Shown here piece by piece: positions 1,915-22,842 of a stretch of DNA of 23,329 bases (within the stretch, counting starts at the first letter, position 1; each line of letters starts with the position of its first letter). The notes under the pieces are model-generated. The model was not told the DNA's origin. It ran no database searches and worked only from the letters and a program-made list of their open reading frames with translations. The stretch comes from Thiotrichaceae bacterium (GTDB lineage: Bacteria > Pseudomonadota > Gammaproteobacteria > SZUA-229). The DNA is taken from the NCBI GenBank assembly GCA_002746365.1, contig NVWZ01000002.1, positions 45,534-68,862 of the forward strand, written 5' to 3'. The translations under genes were made by a program, and so were the position numbers.

Positions 1915-3294
1915 CTAAAATTTAATGCCCAAGCTGGCTCCCAAAGAATATTGTTTCATAGCAATCGATGCGTTACTTCCTTCAACAATTGCGCCACCTT
2001 GACCAAATGCAGTCGGACCTTTAATAGTATTGTTTAGGGCATACATAAAATTGAAATCAAGTTGCCAGTCGGTTGCCAGCGCCCAGCCTGCGCCTACAGT
2101 AAAATGATGCTCTGGTGTTGCAGGTGCTAACATATTAAATAGAACTTGATCATTTTGTATAGGACTTTCACCATAGTTCCAACCAGTTCTCAAATCCCAT
2201 TTTTCATTGATAGCCCAATTTGCACCGATTTTATATACAGTTTGATCTACCCAGCCAAAACCTAGACCACGTGAGCCACCTAGCCGACAGGAGACATCAG
2301 AAGCCAGACCTTCACATTCTGAAAAAAAGCTAGATGGGTTTGAAGCATCAGGCCCAGGATTACCTATCGACTTTACTTGACTCCATCTTATCCGTTGAAT
2401 ATCAAATGCAACCGTCACTGCAGGCGTAAAATCATAGGCGAATCCTATTGAATAGTTTTCAGGAATATCGAAATCACCTTGCTCAGCAAACAGGTTCCTA
2501 TATTGGTTAAACTCATCCATCCAAACTCTTGATGAATAATTAATGCCAACCCTAAATGTATCGTCAGCAAATTTACTCAACCAGCCTAAACGATAACCGC
2601 CACCAAAAGAGTGGTCCCAGTTTTTCCCAGTTAAGAAACCTGGGCTAGATGTAAATCCTAAAGCATCAAAGTCTTCAAGGCCTTCCGCTCTAAAAAACTG
2701 AGCAGCTAAAACCAGTGAAGCGCCCCAGGTATGTGTTTCGCTCAGTTTGTATGCAAAGCTTGGTATAAATTGCATTTGAACTAATTCGACACCTGCTTCA
2801 CGAGCCGCTGTCGAATCTAATGCATTAAATACCGTTGGAGGACAAGTACCAGGGGCAGTTGCATTCACTTGCGTACATGAGCTACTAGTCGAAGCCTGGT
2901 TATATTCTGTTTTCAGTCCTGCACCAATAAAAGCAAAACCCACAACCGAATTTTCGCCCCATTCGTAGGTTAGCCCCATCGACGGTATTAAAAATATATC
3001 ATGGTTACTTCGCTCATCCGTAAAACCTAATGTGCTACTTTCGTGTTTTATTGCTCGAGGAGGAACAAATATTTCAGCACCCAACTGAAATTCATTAGTC
3101 GAATCAATCATTGTAGCCGGATTAAATGCGGCTGCCATTGCATTTCGATTATCTGCAACGCCCGTACCGCCCATCGCTCTTGATTGAGAACCGAAGCCTA
3201 TTAAAAAATAACCGTTCGTTGCCTGAACCGTTGCGGGTACGCTAAGCCCTACTGTTAATGCACAAAATAGTACTTTTTTGAAACTGAACTTCAT
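1915..3294 (-). CDS. OmpP1/FadL/TodX-family outer-membrane transport protein
   Basis: The family forms outer-membrane beta-barrels that pass hydrophobic compounds such as long-chain fatty acids or aromatics. After a signal peptide (MKFSFKKVL to VQA, about 25 residues) the mature protein starts TNGYFLIGFGSQSRAMGG, then GVADNRNAMAAAFNPATM, the classic FadL N-terminal hatch region. Many later strands alternate polar and aromatic residues, and the chain ends SLGASLGIKF with the terminal Phe typical of barrels. I chose the ATG at 3294 (459 residues) over the one at 3315, because AAGGGAG lies six bases upstream of it and the longer version puts seven extra residues before the signal peptide. It lies 82 bp downstream of the Ig-like gene with no obvious terminator between, so the two may be cotranscribed. 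The substrate cannot be read from sequence. Confidence 0.88.
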   Translation of the reverse strand: MKFSFKKVLFCALTVGLSVPATVQATNGYFLIGFGSQSRAMGGTGVADNRNAMAAAFNPATMIDSTNEFQLGAEIFVPPRAIKHESSTLGFTDERSNHDIFLIPSMGLTYEWGENSVVGFAFIGAGLKTEYNQASTSSSCTQVNATAPGTCPPTVFNALDSTAAREAGVELVQMQFIPSFAYKLSETHTWGASLVLAAQFFRAEGLEDFDALGFTSSPGFLTGKNWDHSFGGGYRLGWLSKFADDTFRVGINYSSRVWMDEFNQYRNLFAEQGDFDIPENYSIGFAYDFTPAVTVAFDIQRIRWSQVKSIGNPGPDASNPSSFFSECEGLASDVSCRLGGSRGLGFGWVDQTVYKIGANWAINEKWDLRTGWNYGESPIQNDQVLFNMLAPATPEHHFTVGAGWALATDWQLDFNFMYALNNTIKGPTAFGQGGAIVEGSNASIAMKQYSLGASLGIKF

Positions 3295-3300
3295 GAAATT

Positions 3301-3307
3301 CTCCCTT
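3301..3307 (-). promoter_or_regulatory. ribosome binding site of the FadL-family gene
   Basis: CTCCCTT on the plus strand is AAGGGAG on the coding strand, six bases before the ATG at 3294. It decides the start in favour of 3294 rather than 3315. Confidence 0.75.
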
Positions 3308-3376
3308 GAGAACATTATTTAGCAGGTGAAACAATCTTGACCTGAATGTATTTTTATTAAATTATTATTGTATTGC

Positions 3377-5842
3377 TTAGCTACGAATTATTCGATACTG
3401 ACGAAAACCCACTATCGAAAACATAACCGCAATTAGACTCCATATACTTAAGGAGGAGCTACCCAATTTAGTACTTGTAATTTCTGTCGTTATCGGTGCT
3501 AATGATCCAGCCACACCACTAGGTCCAATGTTAAAATTCGCTGAGAAACCGATAAAAGAACCATCAATCATAGCGATACCGACAATACCATCACCATCAC
3601 CGTCAATATTGACCCTTTCCCAGGTTCCTTCTTCATCAGGTGCAACACCTGCAGGTCCTCCAAACAATTTATTCTTATCTCCGGTCCCGCCCAGGCGATT
3701 CCATACAGTATTTAGCTCATATAAATTGAACACGTCAATGTTGGCAGTTACAGAGTAATCAAAGAGAATATGTGCCAGCACCTGCCCCGGTGCTACTGTA
3801 ATAGTAATAAATTGCTGCGTTTGTATCACGTTACCATCAACTGTAGTCAAAGGACCGTTACAGGTTTCGGTACCACTTGCTTCAAACTGGCTCACGCTAC
3901 AAGTTGTATCAAAAGTATAAGTACCAGGGCCAAACATACGTATATGATGGGCGAACCATGGTGAACCGAAGAACTCGTGACCATCCGGCGCAGTGACTGG
4001 ATTCCCTAATGAACGCATAGTTGCAACCACATTGGTATCAGTCACACTCGTGTTAAATGTGCCGTCCCATTCAAATACAACGTCATTCGTTCCACCAAAA
4101 GTATTACCTACAGTATTTAACATGGTGAAATTTCCCAAATTAGGATCAGCGACATTAACCGTTGCAGTTATCACAACGGATGGAGTCGTGCCGTCAGTAG
4201 CTACATAGGTAAAAGTATCAAGACCTTCAAAACCTGAAGGTGGAGTATAAGTCAACGTTCCCGCATTGTTGGTTATGTTACCACCGTTAGCACTGCCTGA
4301 ATCGACTGAGAATAATGATACAGTATCACCATCTGCATCTGTACATATTGGAACAGCGCCAGTGGTAGCTAACATCTCGGTGGCCACGTCAATATCCAGC
4401 GCCTCATCGCGAGCTGTAGTAAAACTAACATCATTACATGTGACGATATCGTTAATACTGTTGACCGTTACTAGTACATCAGCATTTGCAATGTTACCTA
4501 CGCTGTCGAGAATGACATAATTAAACTGATCACTACCAAAGAAATTTGCTGCGGGTGTATAAGTAAGGTCATTACCAACGGCTGTAATACTGCCGCCCTG
4601 TTGAGAAATCAGGTCAAAAGATTGAACCGTAATAGTTGTATCTACTACGGCCGCATCAACTGTATCATTTAAAGTTGGGTCAATGACCAGAGCTATATCT
4701 TCATCAGTGACGACAGGATCATCATTCGCGGTTGGAGGCGGTGTGACAGGAAGGTTAATGGTTACTGTAACCGTATCCATGTTGCCCGCTATATCCGTAA
4801 TCGTGTAATCGAATGTATCTGACGCACCCGGTACAGCTGCAGGAGTATAAGTAAGGATATTCCCACTCTCCACCAGCGTTCCATCAGCAGGCTGAGTAAA
4901 TGAAAAAAATGATATTGTTTCTGCAGGATCGGCATGAATATCGTTAGCAAGTAGGTCCGTTGTTTTATTGATTGTCGATGAAACAGCAGGGGGGCGGGCC
5001 AGAAGATCTGCTACAGCTACTGGTTCAGCTGAAACTAAAACAAACTGAATATTATAAACTTCCGAATACGCCGTTCCTTCAAAAAACTGCCAAAATGTTC
5101 CTATATTACCGGCCGAAACTAAAATCGCATCAAGAATACCATCTGTATTAGCATCGCCAATGGCACGTCCTGTCAAAGTTAGGCCAACTGCTCCACCTGG
5201 CATAGATCCAGCACCTACAAGAAAATTAGTACTTGTACCGGTCACAAATGGATTATGTACATTAGTGGGAGGCGGCAGCTCAGCTAGAGTTGAATCATCC
5301 AAATTCCATGGTTGAATACCTATACTAAAGACAAAAGATGCGGCTACACCAACGCGACCATCTGGATTAAGTACCATATCACCCGCTGCTGTAATCGTAC
5401 CAGTGCCAGTATTCATACCATCGGGGGGGGTCATACTCGTCTTAAACGTACCACCTGCTGTGTTTAGATATGGATCCATCTGCAATGAATCTATGGTGAA
5501 TGTATTATTACCTAAGGCATCGGCCCTATCAGTAGTAATCACAAAAACACCTCCAAATCCGTCGATTACGCCATTACCCCCAGAAAGGAGTAATGCCGGG
5601 TTAGTATCAACATTGTCTGTAACTTTGGATGTACCGTTACATGTAAGCGTAGCATCACCAAAATCAAATGAGGAACATAGGCCGACACTAGTAGGATCGG
5701 TCTCAACAACAATATTTACATTATAAATTGCGCGCTGTCCGAGTGTTTCAGCCTCAGCGATCATTGTTGAGAAAAAGCATAACGCAGTAACGGATATTAT
5801 GCGCGTTGCTTTTTTATTAAGCTTTTGTTTCCATTTGTACAT
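3377..5842 (-). CDS. secreted Ig/cadherin-like repeat protein with C-terminal sorting-like tail
   Basis: The protein has 821 residues from the ATG at 5842. A long signal peptide (KWKQKLNKK n-region, cleavage after AEA near residue 31) leads into a beta-rich domain (about 32-270) with a Ca-binding-like loop GDANTDGILD. Three tandem cadherin/VCBS-like domains follow (about 275-365, 370-465, 466-566), each with a TYTP strand and an F(D/N)Y or FTY strand. A distinct C-terminal domain (570-785) contains GSPWFAHHIRMFGPGTYTF and an acidic loop DGDGDGIVG. The last 28 residues form a tripartite tail: GSSSLSIWSL, a hydrophobic helix, then basic residues (RQYRIIRS). This resembles PEP-CTERM or GlyGly-CTERM sorting signals but has no PEP. 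It is probably a surface or matrix protein. Regulation: a sigma-54 promoter lies about 470 bp upstream. The exact sorting class is unresolved. Confidence 0.8.
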   Translation of the reverse strand: MYKWKQKLNKKATRIISVTALCFFSTMIAEAETLGQRAIYNVNIVVETDPTSVGLCSSFDFGDATLTCNGTSKVTDNVDTNPALLLSGGNGVIDGFGGVFVITTDRADALGNNTFTIDSLQMDPYLNTAGGTFKTSMTPPDGMNTGTGTITAAGDMVLNPDGRVGVAASFVFSIGIQPWNLDDSTLAELPPPTNVHNPFVTGTSTNFLVGAGSMPGGAVGLTLTGRAIGDANTDGILDAILVSAGNIGTFWQFFEGTAYSEVYNIQFVLVSAEPVAVADLLARPPAVSSTINKTTDLLANDIHADPAETISFFSFTQPADGTLVESGNILTYTPAAVPGASDTFDYTITDIAGNMDTVTVTINLPVTPPPTANDDPVVTDEDIALVIDPTLNDTVDAAVVDTTITVQSFDLISQQGGSITAVGNDLTYTPAANFFGSDQFNYVILDSVGNIANADVLVTVNSINDIVTCNDVSFTTARDEALDIDVATEMLATTGAVPICTDADGDTVSLFSVDSGSANGGNITNNAGTLTYTPPSGFEGLDTFTYVATDGTTPSVVITATVNVADPNLGNFTMLNTVGNTFGGTNDVVFEWDGTFNTSVTDTNVVATMRSLGNPVTAPDGHEFFGSPWFAHHIRMFGPGTYTFDTTCSVSQFEASGTETCNGPLTTVDGNVIQTQQFITITVAPGQVLAHILFDYSVTANIDVFNLYELNTVWNRLGGTGDKNKLFGGPAGVAPDEEGTWERVNIDGDGDGIVGIAMIDGSFIGFSANFNIGPSGVAGSLAPITTEITSTKLGSSSLSIWSLIAVMFSIVGFRQYRIIRS

Positions 5843-5850
5843 TTTATTCA

Positions 5851-5854
5851 CCTC
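5851..5854 (-). promoter_or_regulatory. ribosome binding site choosing the start at 5842
   Basis: The coding strand reads CCGAGGTGAATAAAATG, with GAGG eight bases before the ATG at 5842. The frame stays open to 5911, but those 23 extra codons have a second hydrophobic stretch and no comparable ribosome site, so 5842 is preferred. Confidence 0.65.
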
Positions 5855-6059
5855 GGGGTAATGATCGTTTGCAATAACAGGACACGCCATGATAAACAGT
5901 ACAACTGGCAATATTTGTTTTTTGCTTCTTTTTATCGAAAATTTGGAATTTTTTATAATAGTTTTATAAATTTACATTAGAGCATGCTTCTATTCTCAGA
6001 CGCACACTGCCAAACTTTTTTCATCAGGTCAACCAAATATAAATAAAAGCATGCACCTA

Positions 6060-6093
6060 CGTGACATATTTAATAAAATATATATTTGTCACG
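6060..6093. repeat. inverted repeat CGTGACA-N20-TGTCACG
   Basis: Perfect 7-bp arms (6060-6066 and 6087-6093) enclose 20 bases made only of A and T, parts of which can also pair. It sits between the sigma-54 promoter and the start of the Ig-like gene, so it would be transcribed into the leader RNA. It may be an operator dyad or an RNA hairpin; nothing in sequence decides. Confidence 0.45.
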
Positions 6094-6312
6094 AATCTAA
6101 AAAATCCTACATTTATATTTTTACAGTTTGCTCCCTGCAAATAATGGATAATAAAGAGACTAATGTGATGTAATTAAGCAATAAGCAAAGAGACTGACTT
6201 AAACAGAGCTTAATTATTACTGAATTCATAAACAATTAGATCAAAATATTTCTTTAAAAAATCTTATAAATCAAATACTTTACTGTAAGAATCGACTATC
6301 ATGCACTAACAG

Positions 6313-6328
6313 AGCAACATCCGTGCCA
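6313..6328 (-). promoter_or_regulatory. sigma-54 (RpoN) -24/-12 promoter
   Basis: The minus strand reads TGGCACGGATGTTGCT, matching the consensus TGGCACG-N4-TTGCW at every defined position, with GG and GC exactly 10 bases apart. It points leftward at the Ig-like gene (5842) and predicts a start site near 6302 with a leader of about 460 bases. The sigma-54-dependent regulator PrsR is encoded immediately upstream. In studied flocculating bacteria, PrsK/PrsR and RpoN activate PEP-CTERM protein genes, which fits this placement. Confidence 0.8.
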
Positions 6329-6826
6329 GAAAATTATTTCTTATAATAAACAATATATTAGTAAACATTTTCATCTACTGTCTACCGAAATAATTAATAT
6401 TCAATATATTTAGTCCTGCCTGGTAGCAACTGAGTAAATAAATCCGACATCTATGAAACATGTAAAAAACGCTTTTGGCTTTTAAAAAATTAATATAATC
6501 AATCATTTAGAAATACTTATAAAGACTTATAAAAACTAAAAGTAGACTGTCGAATATATTGACACAATAAGAATAATAAAATGTTATTAAGTTAAAGTTA
6601 AGGCAAGCCCAACAAATACATAAGCTTAGGAAAATAGCTAAGTAAAATTTTCCAACAGTTTTTACTAGTGAATTGGTACACGAAAAATTGTCGCTGGAAG
6701 GCTAAAGTCAGTTTTCAAAGCTATTAAGTATGCGTGATACTTCACTGACATTCTTCCAAGTTTGACCATCAAGTCTGAACTTTTTTATTCCATCGTAATT
6801 TTAAATGGCACTATTCGCCGCTGACT

Positions 6827-8176
6827 TTATACGGTAATATTCAATTTTTTGATCAAATCATAAAGCGTAGGACGACTCACACCTAATAGTTCCGCAGCTG
6901 GCGCAACTTTACCATTAACGTGAGATAACGCACGGAGAATTGCCTGTCGTTCGACCTTCTCACGAATATCACGCAAGTTAAAATTCATCGATTCTGAAGA
7001 TGTTCTATCAAGCTCTAAATCCATAGAGGACAATTGCTTGCCATCTGTCATGATGACCGCACGTTTTATACGATTTTGTAATTCACGAACATTGCCTGGC
7101 CAGGAATATGCCTCCATCGAACTTAAAGCATCTTTTGTGAAGCCTCGCAACTTACGACCATGATCTTCGTTAAATTTTTCAAAAAAGAAGCGAGCCAGAA
7201 TAATGATATCTCCTTCACGATCTCGCAAGGGTGGAATTTCTAAGGGTATTTCACTTATACGATAGAATAAATCTTCTCTGAATTGCCCCTGCTCTATCTT
7301 TTCACGTAGATTTTGATGGGTGGCACAAACCACACGAACATTAACCGGTATTGGCTCATGCCCGCCTACACGTTCAACAACTCGTTCCTGTAAAAAACGC
7401 AATAATTTCGCCTGTAAGGTAAAAGGCAAATCACCCATTTCATCGAGAAACAAGGTTCCTCCATTTGCATATTCGACTTTACCAATCGTTGTTTTATTCG
7501 CGCCAGTAAATGCACCTTTCTCATAACCGAATAATTCGCTTTCAAGCAGAGTCTCAGGTATTGCCGCACAGTTTATCGCGACAAAATTACCTTCATTGTT
7601 CGAGCCTAGTGTATGCAAACCTCTAGCACACAGTTCTTTACCGGTACCACTTTCACCTAATAAAAGAACCGTAGCATCAGAAGGCGCCACTTTTTCGACC
7701 GCTTTACAAACACTCTGCATTTGGGGACTGCACGCAATGACGCCAGCAAATGGCTCATGTATACCGCTAGATTGTAATCTAAGATTTTCATCTTCTAATT
7801 CTAATAAGCGAAATGCACGGTTCACAATTAAGCTAATAATTTCTGGCTCAAAGGGTTTACTATAAAAATCATAGGCACCTAAACCAATGGCTTTGACAGC
7901 ATTCTCACGTTCTTCCTGGCCTGTCACAACAATGACTTTTATATTAGGGTCTATCTCCATGATTTGTTCTAGCGTTGCAAATCCCTCGCTAGGGTTATCT
8001 TCATGAGGAGGTAAACCCAGATCTAGCGTTACAACGGCAGGTTTGTTTTTTCTGACCTGCTCGATGGCAGATCCTCGGTCGTTAGCTAATAAAACATCGT
8101 AATTTTCAAAACACCAGCGTATCTGGCTTTGTAGTCCCGGATCATCTTCTACAACAAGTAATTTATTATTATTCAT
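6827..8176 (-). CDS. prsR: sigma-54-dependent response regulator PrsR
   Basis: This is an NtrC/AtoC-type regulator of 449 residues. The receiver domain (5-125) has acidic residues VVEDD near 8-12, phospho-acceptor Asp52 in LDLGLP and Lys107 in SKPF. The AAA+ domain has Walker A GESGTGKE (174-181), the sigma-54-contacting GAFTGA loop (221-226), Walker B TLFLDE (241-246) and FREDLFYRI (299-307). A Fis-type helix-turn-helix closes the protein (420-446, GKVAPAAELLGVSRPTLYDL). The intact GAFTGA motif shows that it can activate RpoN promoters. I chose the ATG at 8176 because the receiver then begins MNNNKLLVVEDD, as in the family; the frame extends to a TTG at 8245 with a low-complexity leader. The ribosome site is weak. 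It follows the kinase PrsK and is most likely its partner. Confidence 0.9.
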   Translation of the reverse strand: MNNNKLLVVEDDPGLQSQIRWCFENYDVLLANDRGSAIEQVRKNKPAVVTLDLGLPPHEDNPSEGFATLEQIMEIDPNIKVIVVTGQEERENAVKAIGLGAYDFYSKPFEPEIISLIVNRAFRLLELEDENLRLQSSGIHEPFAGVIACSPQMQSVCKAVEKVAPSDATVLLLGESGTGKELCARGLHTLGSNNEGNFVAINCAAIPETLLESELFGYEKGAFTGANKTTIGKVEYANGGTLFLDEMGDLPFTLQAKLLRFLQERVVERVGGHEPIPVNVRVVCATHQNLREKIEQGQFREDLFYRISEIPLEIPPLRDREGDIIILARFFFEKFNEDHGRKLRGFTKDALSSMEAYSWPGNVRELQNRIKRAVIMTDGKQLSSMDLELDRTSSESMNFNLRDIREKVERQAILRALSHVNGKVAPAAELLGVSRPTLYDLIKKLNITV

Positions 8177-8287
8177 GTGTGCATTTTTACCATAATTTTT
8201 ATCATTTGTCGAAATATTTAACACTGAATTTCTGATATTATTCAATGAGGTATTACTCTATAGCCCATCAATAAAATTATTCATTTT

Positions 8288-8435: not shown

Positions 8436-10496
8436 TTATATAGCAGCAGGAATAGTCAGTCTAAAACATGTGCCAACATTTACCTCGCTCTTTACTTCTA
8501 TCTGCCCGCCGATAGCCAGTATGATTTCTCTTGATTCATAAACACCTATACCCATTCCCTTTGAGCCTTTTGTCGTTTTAAACGGCTTAAATAAGTTATT
8601 TTGAATAAAGTCATTACTCATACCGCAACCAGTATCTTCAATTTCAATAACAACACCTTCGGTTGAACGTTTTTGAGAAATGGTCACTTTTCCTGCGTCA
8701 TCAGTCGCATCCTGAGCATTTTGAACAAGATGACCAAGTATGGATAACAATTGATTTTTATCCGCTTTAACAATAAATGAGGATGATTCGCAACCTAGTA
8801 TCGGTACGGGTTTACCTCCCGCTATTTGTCGATTGTGAACCAGTTCCTCTAACACGGATACAATATTAACTTTACTCGATTGACTGGTTGCCACTTTGCC
8901 ACTTAACACTCCCATCATTTTATTCATTTTCATAACAGAGTTATTAATGGTTTTAAACACATCTTCCATAAACAAAGGATTATCTTTGTGTTTTTCAGCA
9001 TTACTGGAGATTAATGAGAGTTGTGCAACTAAATTTTTAATATCATGAACCACATAGGTCGACACTTTATTAAAATTTTCAAATTGCCTGACTTCAGCAA
9101 GTGCTTCTGATGCATTCATCTGCTCCAGGAAAGCTGCGACCTGTCTGGCTGCTGTTTTTAATAGATCACTGTCTTCCCAGTTAAACGTTTTTTTACGTGC
9201 TGCCGAATGATCGAGCACTATAAAACCAATCAGTAAATCATTGTATATAAGCGGGACTATTAACCAGGGATCAACCTTTTTTACCCAATCGGGCAATTCG
9301 AGGTAACCTAATCGGTTATAGACTTCTGGCTGAGTAAGAAATTCATCAACACTGATGACGAACTCATGCTCCTCCATAAATTTAGGCAATGCAGTTTCTG
9401 CGGGTTCTCTATCCGTTATATGCTGCATTTCCCAGGTATCCACGCATGAAAAAAATCCATTATCTTCACGCAGCCATAACATACCTCCAGGGCTCTCGAT
9501 AATTTGGGCAATTGATTTAATCGTATTGTGGTAAAGCTCCTTTTCTTCACTTGATACCGCAATAGTTCGAATAAAACGCAGCCATTCTTCACGATAATCG
9601 TATTTATATGGGTAGAAGTGCTTGTTCACAAGAACATAAAGTCGTGCACGTATGCGCCGGGATGACACGAAAAGCGCTAACAAAAGGACTGTTATGAATA
9701 AAAAGATTGCCTGTGCAACCAGGCCCCAGTTACCACCAAAATCACGGACGTAGTAACCGGCAATCCCCATGAACATTAAATAAATGCCACTGGCTAATAA
9801 AGTAGTGGTATGAAAAACAACGCGACGAGAAATAAATATTTCTGGTGACCATAGCGGGTCTCGGGAAATAGAGATACCAATTAATGGAATAGTAAGAGCA
9901 TAAATAAAGCCCCTCGCCTGCCACAGGACATCATCGATTCGCTGGTATAACAAAGCATCTGAGTACATATAAAAATCATATAGGTACATGCCTAACAGGC
10001 CCAGGCACAAGTATTTAATCGCCCATTTTTGTTCTGTACGAGTATTACGGTAGACCTGCTCTATCAGTGCAATACCTATAATTGAAACCAGAAGGTTCAG
10101 TGCGATTAGATATTCAATATCACCCAGTATAAAAATATCACCAAATGCATAGCTCAAAAATTCCGGCACAGCCAATACAATGACGAAGAGCAGAACTGAT
10201 AGTTTTATTTTTTTTATCGTTTTTTTCTTGAAACGATTGCTATATGAAAGGCACAATAACTGTACTAGAAGAAGCAACCACGACGTACCTTTTAAATATT
10301 CTATTATCGATACACGTATTGGAAAAGTTGAAACCAATGATTCATAAGCTAGAATAAACGCCCAAATGCAGTTCACACTTGCGGCAATTAATAATGCTTT
10401 TTTTGTAGAACCTTTATGTCTATCAGTTAGCAGAATTGCTAAAAATATAAGGAACGTGAAGGCGCTTATTGAATAACCAACTGCACCTATATTCAT
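8436..10496 (-). CDS. prsK: membrane sensor histidine kinase PrsK
   Basis: The protein has 686 residues. The first ~280 are hydrophobic, with about eight or nine membrane segments, as in PrsK proteins of exosortase loci. A GAF-like region follows (about 305-460; VPLIYNDLLIGFIVLD), then the dimerisation helix with phospho-acceptor His484 in VVHDIKN, and a HATPase_c domain with N-box LVQNAQDATDD (590-600), G1 DTGCG (621-625) and G2 KGMGIG (646-651). All catalytic motifs are intact. The signal is unknown; the polytopic N-terminus suggests a membrane or envelope cue. The response regulator follows downstream on the same strand, about 260 bp away and across a palindromic repeat. GGG about nine bases before the ATG is a modest ribosome site. 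Confidence 0.9.
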   Translation of the reverse strand: MNIGAVGYSISAFTFLIFLAILLTDRHKGSTKKALLIAASVNCIWAFILAYESLVSTFPIRVSIIEYLKGTSWLLLLVQLLCLSYSNRFKKKTIKKIKLSVLLFVIVLAVPEFLSYAFGDIFILGDIEYLIALNLLVSIIGIALIEQVYRNTRTEQKWAIKYLCLGLLGMYLYDFYMYSDALLYQRIDDVLWQARGFIYALTIPLIGISISRDPLWSPEIFISRRVVFHTTTLLASGIYLMFMGIAGYYVRDFGGNWGLVAQAIFLFITVLLLALFVSSRRIRARLYVLVNKHFYPYKYDYREEWLRFIRTIAVSSEEKELYHNTIKSIAQIIESPGGMLWLREDNGFFSCVDTWEMQHITDREPAETALPKFMEEHEFVISVDEFLTQPEVYNRLGYLELPDWVKKVDPWLIVPLIYNDLLIGFIVLDHSAARKKTFNWEDSDLLKTAARQVAAFLEQMNASEALAEVRQFENFNKVSTYVVHDIKNLVAQLSLISSNAEKHKDNPLFMEDVFKTINNSVMKMNKMMGVLSGKVATSQSSKVNIVSVLEELVHNRQIAGGKPVPILGCESSSFIVKADKNQLLSILGHLVQNAQDATDDAGKVTISQKRSTEGVVIEIEDTGCGMSNDFIQNNLFKPFKTTKGSKGMGIGVYESREIILAIGGQIEVKSEVNVGTCFRLTIPAAI

Positions 10497-21264: not shown

Positions 21265-22842
21265 TTAATCTGGCACGTATTCAGTGATTATCGGCGCAAC
21301 ATCAACTAAGAAAGCATGCAAACGATCATCCGCTATTTTTATATCTTGACCTGGCTGCAGCGTTGTTACCACACGCATCAAAGCACCATCGCTTCGATTC
21401 ATTGTGACCGCATCATAAAACAAATACCATTTTAATAGGTATTCATGACTTAATACGCGCCCACGCTGCTGAAACCAATAATAAACAAGCTGCTTAATAT
21501 CACCCTTTTGCGTTAACAGTCTTCTGACTACCAACGGCTTATCCGAAACAGTGACACCATCAATTAAATGATCAGTAATTGATTTTATTTCCCAACCGCC
21601 ACCTGGTATACACGCTTTGGGAGAGTGTATAGAAGCACCTTTTCTTTGCGACTCATAGTATGCTGAGTAGAAGTTGACCGCATCACCTTCATTAGCACCA
21701 ACGTAATCAGACATTGTGTAATCGGACAAATCCAGGACATCTATAACATTTTTTTCAAGCCTTAGAGCACGCCCTTTCCAGCCGTTTATTTCTAGTGGAA
21801 ACTCTGCGAATTGTTTTCTTTCAGGAATAATCTCCACGCGATCAGGCAGTATTAAGGCAGCCGTCACGGCCACCGCTAAAAAAAACATTGAGGCAACAAA
21901 TGGGACAGGGATTCTTCTGATTTTAACTTTTGCACTTTCTGGCGCGTCTTCGGGGAAATCAAGACCAAAAGCTTCGCGTAACGGCAATTTGTCTTTACCT
22001 ATTTTTGCCAAAAGCCACATTTCCAAAATCAAAATACCAATACAACTCATGAATACCGCCCAACCTTCGAAGTCATGAAGAAAGCCTTCAGCCATCTCAA
22101 TACCCCAGTATTCAACCATTACTCCTATCACCCCAATTCTTAAACTGTTCATCAAAATAGTAATTGGAATAGTCGATAAAAATAGCACTACTTTTTTCCA
22201 AAAAGCACCGGTAAAAAAATACGCCGTCATAAAGCCCAGCGTCATCAAAGGAAATAAATAATTCAATCCACTACAAGCCTCTACAACCTGTAGTTTATAA
22301 ACACCTAAATCAATCACATTACCTTCAAGATAAACACTGATATCAAACAACCTAATTACAGCTACACCGATTTCTGATGATACAAGCTGCAATTTAGCCG
22401 ACAAAGTATTAAATACAAAATTAGGTAACGGAATCATGAAAAATAGCATCATTAACGGTACTAAGATAATCGCAAATACTTTTTTCCCGGTCATTGACAA
22501 GACTAAACCAAAAAGAACAATAACAAAGGCATACTGAATAGCAGCATAGTGTGAAGCAAGCTCACCCACAATGCTAAATAAAAGACCAACAACACAAACA
22601 ATAACACCAAGCCAGGAACCGTTAAATTCAAGTTTCTCTATAACGTCCTTTTTTTGCCAAATAAGAAACATGATAATAAAAGGAATCATATAGCCATGAC
22701 CATACTCTTCCTTGGTGTTCCAAATGTTGACCATCTGGGACAAACCGTCGGCGAATATCAAATACAGCATTGCAATTACTACGACAACCAGAGAAAAGGT
22801 CAACCAATTTGCACGCCAAATAACTGTTTCATTTGTACTCAT
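21265..22842 (-). CDS. xrtA: exosortase fused to EpsI domain (XrtA type)
   Basis: This is a 525-residue inner-membrane protein. The N-terminal half (about 15-285) is an exosortase with eight or so membrane helices and the cysteine-protease-like triad Cys190 (VVEACSGLNYL), Arg235 (ILMNSLRIG) and His256 (FLHDFEGW). The C-terminal half (about 310-525) is an EpsI domain with FPLEINGWKGRAL (348-360), GASIHSPKACIPGGGWEI (402-419) and YYWFQQRGRVL (454-464). Exosortases cleave and probably transfer proteins bearing PEP-CTERM-like tails. The XrtA assignment rests on the prsT/prsK/prsR neighbours and the chain-length protein; a different exosortase class such as XrtD, also fused to EpsI, is not excluded. 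AGG about eight bases before the ATG is a fair ribosome site. Confidence 0.9.
   Translation of the reverse strand: MSTNETVIWRANWLTFSLVVVVIAMLYLIFADGLSQMVNIWNTKEEYGHGYMIPFIIMFLIWQKKDVIEKLEFNGSWLGVIVCVVGLLFSIVGELASHYAAIQYAFVIVLFGLVLSMTGKKVFAIILVPLMMLFFMIPLPNFVFNTLSAKLQLVSSEIGVAVIRLFDISVYLEGNVIDLGVYKLQVVEACSGLNYLFPLMTLGFMTAYFFTGAFWKKVVLFLSTIPITILMNSLRIGVIGVMVEYWGIEMAEGFLHDFEGWAVFMSCIGILILEMWLLAKIGKDKLPLREAFGLDFPEDAPESAKVKIRRIPVPFVASMFFLAVAVTAALILPDRVEIIPERKQFAEFPLEINGWKGRALRLEKNVIDVLDLSDYTMSDYVGANEGDAVNFYSAYYESQRKGASIHSPKACIPGGGWEIKSITDHLIDGVTVSDKPLVVRRLLTQKGDIKQLVYYWFQQRGRVLSHEYLLKWYLFYDAVTMNRSDGALMRVVTTLQPGQDIKIADDRLHAFLVDVAPIITEYVPD

Follow-up and report, generated by a model that had tools for sequence, protein, structure and literature searches.

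A probable sigma-54 promoter with an upstream PrsR-type box precedes an Ig-like/FadL-like gene pair in a Thiotrichaceae bacterium

Introduction

An activator-binding box combined with a sigma-54 promoter is a known type of genetic switch, which as a rule governs slime-associated surface proteins. Promoters of this kind have been described for PEP-CTERM genes since 2006. In the available part of Haft et al. (2006; PMC1569441), motif 1 is a predicted PrsR site, a 17-mer ending TTTACA, the spacer averages 62.8 nt (range 32–92), and the start codon lies 23–221 nt past motif 2, the sigma-54 motif. For pepA of Aquincola tertiaricarbonis RN12, the available part of PMC9850573 reports a mapped transcription start and a requirement of rpoN1 for high transcription.

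The locus analyzed here lies in a 23,329-nt stretch of a Thiotrichaceae bacterium genome, hereafter the window. It resembles the Haft module in the succession of a TTTACA-type box, a spacer, a -24/-12 element and a gene, with PrsK and PrsR encoded in the genome, whereas its spacer of 103 nt exceeds the 32–92 range, although in phase, its start codon is 470 nt away rather than 23–221 nt, its target carries a tail that is not PEP-CTERM, and the exosortase of its cluster is XrtD. Like the window target, pepA encodes an exported protein, lies close to prsK/prsR and has the motifs TGGCAC and CTGCTT (PMC9850573); in contrast, pepA belongs to the PEP-CTERM genes and its upstream region measures nearly 85 nt, whereas the window site faces a distant Ig-like/FadL-like pair.

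Results

An exact -24/-12 element is directed at the Ig-like gene

A preliminary description of this DNA had noted a minus-strand 16-mer matching the sigma-54 consensus at every defined base, directed at the gene starting at 5842 and the only such match noticed in the intergenic regions. Each of these observations was borne out. The site and the genes that follow it are:

6328–6313, minus strand: -24/-12 element TGGCACGGATGTTGCT, an exact match to the consensus TGGCACGNNNNTTGCW with 0 mismatches
3377–5842, minus strand: Ig-like/cadherin-like exported protein, 821 aa, with Big_9, Cadherin_5 and tandem-95 repeat
1915–3315, minus strand: FadL-like outer-membrane transport protein, PF03349 at 86.2 bits
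1739–876: small exported gene, the third after the site

The element is oriented toward the ATG at 5842, which is preceded by GAGGTG and opens a MYK.. start common to the homologues P0002, P0003, P0005, and P0006. Two further matches in the window each carry 2 mismatches, a laxity at which 2.89 are expected by chance, and the minus strand of 5842–6830 holds no second site at ≤3 mismatches when GG and GC are required. From the usual -24/-12 spacing, transcription is predicted to start near 6302, 11–13 nt downstream.

The genome-wide promoter scan that the preliminary description had proposed was run. The exact pattern occurs in 4 copies in the 3,413,871-base (3.41-Mb) genome and in none in a backwards-read control; all four lie outside ORFs of at least 100 aa, each oriented toward a downstream ORF. 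Two of these four ORFs are a VPLPA-CTERM gene and the 5842 gene; the remaining two we take, from their translations, to be a fliL-like gene and a FAD-dependent oxidoreductase-like gene. The relaxed pattern TGGCNCN5TTGCW gave 26 matches (control, 5), of which 10 fall outside any ORF of at least 100 aa. VPLPA- or PEP-CTERM-like genes and a few others are found downstream of these 10, together with what are presumably, judging by translations, flagellar-like and hydrogenase-like genes. The genome encodes a single rpoN (C25:37477–38934; TIGR02395, 494 bits, cut-off 277.35).

Many VPLPA-CTERM genes have a phased box-plus-site module

Within the genus, 68 VPLPA/PEP-CTERM-type genes were drawn from 79 loci, after dropping genes with no signal-peptide-like ATG start or with too little upstream DNA. 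A coding-strand -24/-12 site (≤2 mismatches, GG and GC kept) was present within 260 nt in 36 of the 68, compared with 1 on the other strand and an average of 1.21 (at most 6) in resampled sequence for the same genes. When the DNA upstream of these 36 sites was searched for motifs de novo, GTCGgtAtTtTTTACAc emerged, which agrees with motif 1 as given in the available part of PMC1569441. TTTACA lies upstream of 27 of the 36 sites, where 3.8 are expected; the hexamer was known from the literature beforehand, and the de novo search made no use of it.

The order in the genus is box, about 62 nt plus or minus whole helical turns, -24/-12 element, gene. The gaps between box and -24 element cluster one helical turn apart, at 50–51, 60–64, 71–74, 82–84, 92–94, and 102 nt, with a phase concentration of 0.8 at a period of 10.2–10.5 (28 boxes of at least 11 bits); the Rayleigh p of about 1e-8 is too small, because related genes were counted as independent. 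Phasing of the boxes is not mentioned in the available parts of PMC1569441 and PMC9850573.

The wider set comprised 122 VPLPA genes from 139 loci, passed through the same start and upstream-DNA filter. In other genera, the module was found for 18 of 57 genes outside the matrix set, with 0 on the reverse strand, and in the same helical phase (p 0.0003–0.0009). Counted 15–230 nt upstream, modules precede 35 of 74 genes where the genome has a PrsR match vs 12 of 48 where it has none, PrsR presence being judged on 13 candidates per genome with many genomes incomplete. The presence of PrsR is not a clean predictor of modules. The modules of these 12 genes either weaken the assignment to PrsR or reflect incomplete genomes or the 13-candidate scoring.

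In the genome of the window itself, the VPLPA-CTERM model has 13 matches at E ≤10, 7 of them above cut-off. The pattern of TTTAC plus site is by itself unspecific there, since the backwards control gave 5 and 3 matches where the pattern itself gave 8 and 12.

A close counterpart of the window target is a VPLPA-CTERM paralogue about 1.6 kb to the left of the window (C7:43122–43922, in L007/L100). It has an exact site 108 nt before its ATG, a box of 19.1 bits and a VPLPA tail over the cut-off, and its domain matches residues 29–269 of the Ig-like protein at 34% over 241 columns. Unlike the Ig-like protein, it is only 262 aa long, ends soon after the common domain and is without the repeats.

A PrsR-type box lies 103 nt upstream of the element

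The preliminary description had overlooked a PrsR-type box, TGTCGGATTTATTTACTC, which lies 103 nt upstream of the -24 element. The box and a second candidate are:

6450–6429 (17-nt core 6448–6432), minus strand: PrsR-type activator box ATGTCGGATTTATTTACTCAGT, 13.2 bits by the matrix of 33 genus boxes
6547–6568, plus strand: candidate for a further box, the near-palindromic CTGTCGAATATATTGACACAAT, fifth in the window at 12.7 bits

With the 33-box matrix, the box at 6450–6429 ranks 4 of 46,616 window positions; one base is off, T standing in place of the last A of TTTACA. A box this good at a gap of 45–110 nt occurs in a fraction of 0.0048 of resamples (p), the window box having been spotted by eye before that gap range was fixed. 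At periods of 10.2–10.6, the gap of 103 nt deviates by no more than about 1.5 nt from the phase seen for the other genes, and gaps of 102, 105, and 107 nt are found among 47 modules of the genus and other genera.

The site is convincing because of this box, and the sigma-54 observation is thereby firmer than the preliminary description could have it: with the box, its phased spacing and the one rpoN, the assignment to the PrsR class of sigma-54 promoters is supported. That box and site are a functionless chance match is very improbable. Sites with ≤2 mismatches are indeed expected at 2.89 per window and the box is imperfect, but only 0.017 modules (box of at least 10 bits plus site) are expected per shuffled window, against the 1 present, and a module with an exact site occurred in 0 of 300 shuffles; the module is, moreover, intergenic, correctly oriented, in phase and adjoining prsR. 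From the enrichment of box, site and spacing, PrsR/sigma-54 control, with a PrsR presumed to activate the RpoN polymerase at the window site, is well supported by sequence.

The box-like sequence at 6547–6568 is a possible further activator site. No IHF-like site was detected in the 104 nt between box and promoter by the consensus patterns used.

The cluster encodes PrsR, PrsK and XrtD, and the genome a second PrsR

The PrsR and PrsK genes sit directly upstream of the target of the site, in a cluster with an exosortase:

6827–8245, minus strand: PrsR, NtrC-like response regulator, TIGR02915 at 703.5 bits (cut-off 502.6)
8436–10496, minus strand: PrsK, sensor histidine kinase, TIGR02916 at 753 bits (cut-off 300)
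21265–22842, minus strand: exosortase XrtD with EpsI domain, TIGR04152 at 579.2 bits (cut-off 400)

PrsR probably starts near 8176, and PrsT scores slightly under its cut-off (301.8 vs 312.2). The exosortase misses the XrtA cut-off (194.8 vs 208) and is of the XrtD, VPLPA-CTERM type.

The proposal that the neighboring PrsR is the activator fared well in one respect, as both PrsR and PrsK exceed their cut-offs and adjoin the target, and less well in another, as a second PrsR could act instead. This full-length copy (C5:164537–165862, 687.9 bits) lies beside PrsK- and PrsT-like genes and falls into a different class from the window PrsR in a tree of 35 of 43 loci, the 8 without a parsed PrsR being left out; an exosortase on its contig scores 153 bits against the XrtD model, under the cut-off, and belongs to another class. 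A genuine module served by the C5 copy, or by both copies, in place of the window neighbor is quite possible, though we would not bet on it. Both PrsR classes end in similar last helices (SRPTLYDLIKKL, SRPSLYSLIKKL), and no sequence feature separating the boxes of the two copies was found. Genomes G009 and G012 have one PrsR match each and no XrtD over the cut-off, yet carry boxes before VPLPA genes (e.g., L131 and L073), and the PrsR of G009 falls into the C5 class. The window PrsR, on the other hand, is the same-strand direct neighbor and a member of the XrtD cluster.

In the second Prs cluster, the module TGGCATAGATAGTGCT, whose box scores 17.3 bits at a gap of 73, lies at L101:17788 on the minus strand (C5 near 172,787) and precedes a possible 38-aa single-helix ORF.

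The site is unusually far from the start codon

The 470 nt that separate the -24/-12 site from the ATG at 5842 are atypical. In a survey extended to about 900 nt, 53 modules were found before the 122 VPLPA genes, at <100 nt in 36 cases, 100–199 nt in 11, 200–299 nt in 2, 300–599 nt in 0, and >600 nt in 4; thus 49 of 53 lie within 300 nt, and the four most distant may belong to preceding genes. The predicted start implies a long leader:

5843–6302, minus strand: predicted untranslated leader, about 460 nt, 28% G+C

This interval holds, on the minus strand, no ATG-started ORF of at least 20 aa wholly inside it and nothing over threshold in Rfam; of known RNAs, just snR50 and mir-465 appeared, both sub-threshold, and were rejected. 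A structured leader was likewise rejected (fold z-score 0.27), as was the remnant of a VPLPA gene lost from the interval that separates prsR from the Ig-like gene: with about 73 protein queries (68 genus genes and 4 from L172/L173), the best tblastn E was 0.089. Separately, an inverted repeat, CGTGACA..TGTCACG with a center of about 20 nt, was noted at 6060–6093. In frame just before the 5842 ATG, the minus strand of 5843–5935 encodes a sequence resembling a signal peptide, KRSKKQILPVVLFIMACPVIAND, whose earliest usable start codon is the TTG at 5911; the homologues begin at the MYK position.

Relatives were scanned at ≤3 mismatches in 13 stretches from 8 GTDB loci, the closer homologues P0002–P0006 (47–60% identity), on short metagenome contigs, lying outside this set. 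Seven of the stretches (L104, L105, L106, L108, L110, L111, and L113) lead up to the Ig-like gene or to whichever gene of the pair comes first, and none of these has a site with ≤2 mismatches; that of L111 is just 120 nt long, and that of L106 has one site with 3 mismatches. In G034 (L172), the Ig-like gene is directly preceded by a VPLPA gene that has a module of its own; in G040 (L173), the genes upstream of it are one of 514 aa, which has an exact site, and then a VPLPA gene.

The distance, these two arrangements and the lack of a site with ≤2 mismatches in all 7 relatives' stretches would fit an active promoter that mainly serves a short or unrecognized transcript in 5843–6302, or the relic of a gene lost there. 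This reading is unlikely, as the region shows no VPLPA remnant, no Rfam match over threshold, no terminator-like site and no unusual fold.

Equally improbable is that read-through from the prsK-prsR operon, or a sigma-70 promoter, accounts for most transcription of the Ig-like and FadL-like genes, with the sigma-54 site minor. No terminator-like site was found in 5800–6900, sigma-70-like sites lie upstream of the sigma-54 site on the same strand (6601–6573 and 6384–6355), and the Ig-like genes of relatives are without a sigma-54 site; however, the sigma-70-like count of the region is below chance (3 vs 6.3 expected), and the 985-nt gap, the box and the exact site favor a separate promoter. Between 6302 and 5842, the minus strand has no sigma-70-like site.

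The probable target pair comprises an adhesin-like protein and a FadL-like channel

The Ig-like protein has a signal peptide and a terminal helix with a basic end, and its homologues P0002–P0025 share 42–60% identity across 91–100% of its length. Besides the terminal helix, its predicted model shows several beta domains and, at 775–802, a linker of low confidence. Foldseek matches are to cadherin and adhesin repeats, with query TM-scores of only 0.10–0.20, low as expected for hinged domains. Among relatives, the N-terminal domain occurs in 1 of 116 genomes, namely its own, in two copies.

The tails of the family read LGS..L..WSL...RR or bear Cys. The last 87 residues of the window protein match 0 NCBIfam families and no sorting model; the label "CTERM protein" in the preliminary description is thus not upheld, and its status as an XrtD substrate is only putative.

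A FadL-like gene, called by resemblance to the window protein with a Pfam match, adjoins the Ig-like homologue in 8 of 11 GTDB loci, and the window FadL-like gene is probably the second gene of an operon with the Ig-like gene. The suggestion that PrsR control reaches the later genes therefore gains for the FadL-like gene and finds no support for the small exported gene at 1739–876: the module at 6450–6313 is the only one in the window, so none precedes that gene.

As a separate observation, one Thiohalobacter genome (L113 and L114) has two matches to the Ig-like C-terminal region with unlike tails. L113 has a glycine-rich tail and no site upstream; L114, a short relative, has a VPIPA tail and a 1-mismatch -24/-12 site 96 nt before its start.

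Further modules precede Arg-rich microproteins

In three genomes, an unannotated Arg-rich microprotein of 47–76 aa (..DRR..RFGDALGRRSG.ERR..) lies directly behind its own box-plus-sigma-54 module, with boxes of 18.5, 14.0, and 16.7 bits and gaps of 74–75:

L100 <4235 (C7 near 40,234, in the genome of the window), minus strand: Arg-rich microprotein
L173 <1763 (contig of L106), minus strand: Arg-rich microprotein
L174 <541 (contig of L107), minus strand: Arg-rich microprotein

They have no NCBIfam match and no Pfam match over cut-off, and the one of the three that was queried has 2 relatives in the protein database. At L188 in the genome of the window (C41:2472–2554), a module TGGCATGAGACTTGCT (box 11.5 bits, gap 61) is followed after 160 nt by an ORF of 170 aa that has no VPLPA tail.

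Discussion

The element at 6328–6313 is probably the core promoter of a PrsR/sigma-54 module that drives the Ig-like and FadL-like genes together. In the proposed mechanism, a signal would lead PrsK to phosphorylate a PrsR protein, which would bind the box at 6448–6432, and perhaps also 6547–6568, with looping of the DNA. The AAA+ domain of PrsR would then open the RpoN polymerase bound at the element, and transcription from near 6302 through the leader of about 460 nt would yield the Ig-like protein and the FadL-like channel, whose output would be in step with that of the regulon's VPLPA-CTERM surface proteins. The 470 nt to the ATG, the gap of 103 nt, the imperfect TTTACA and the missing site in relatives run contrary to this reading.

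The kind of system is the one described since 2006; the target and the geometry are a variation on it, and an unusual one. Tentatively, and with the balance of judgment close to even but slightly against, PrsR/sigma-54 control may extend past exosortase substrates, to a cadherin-like adhesin with a C-terminal tail of a different kind and its partner FadL-like channel, co-expressed via a very long leader, and to Arg-rich microproteins, with boxes placed by whole helical turns.

These results turn a match spotted by eye into a testable regulon, with a PrsR box matrix, a helical-phase rule and named targets in one genome, and they extend the PEP-CTERM prediction of 2006 to an XrtD/VPLPA-CTERM system. 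They also draw attention to an adhesin and channel pair in which a different sorting enzyme may recognize the tail of the adhesin.
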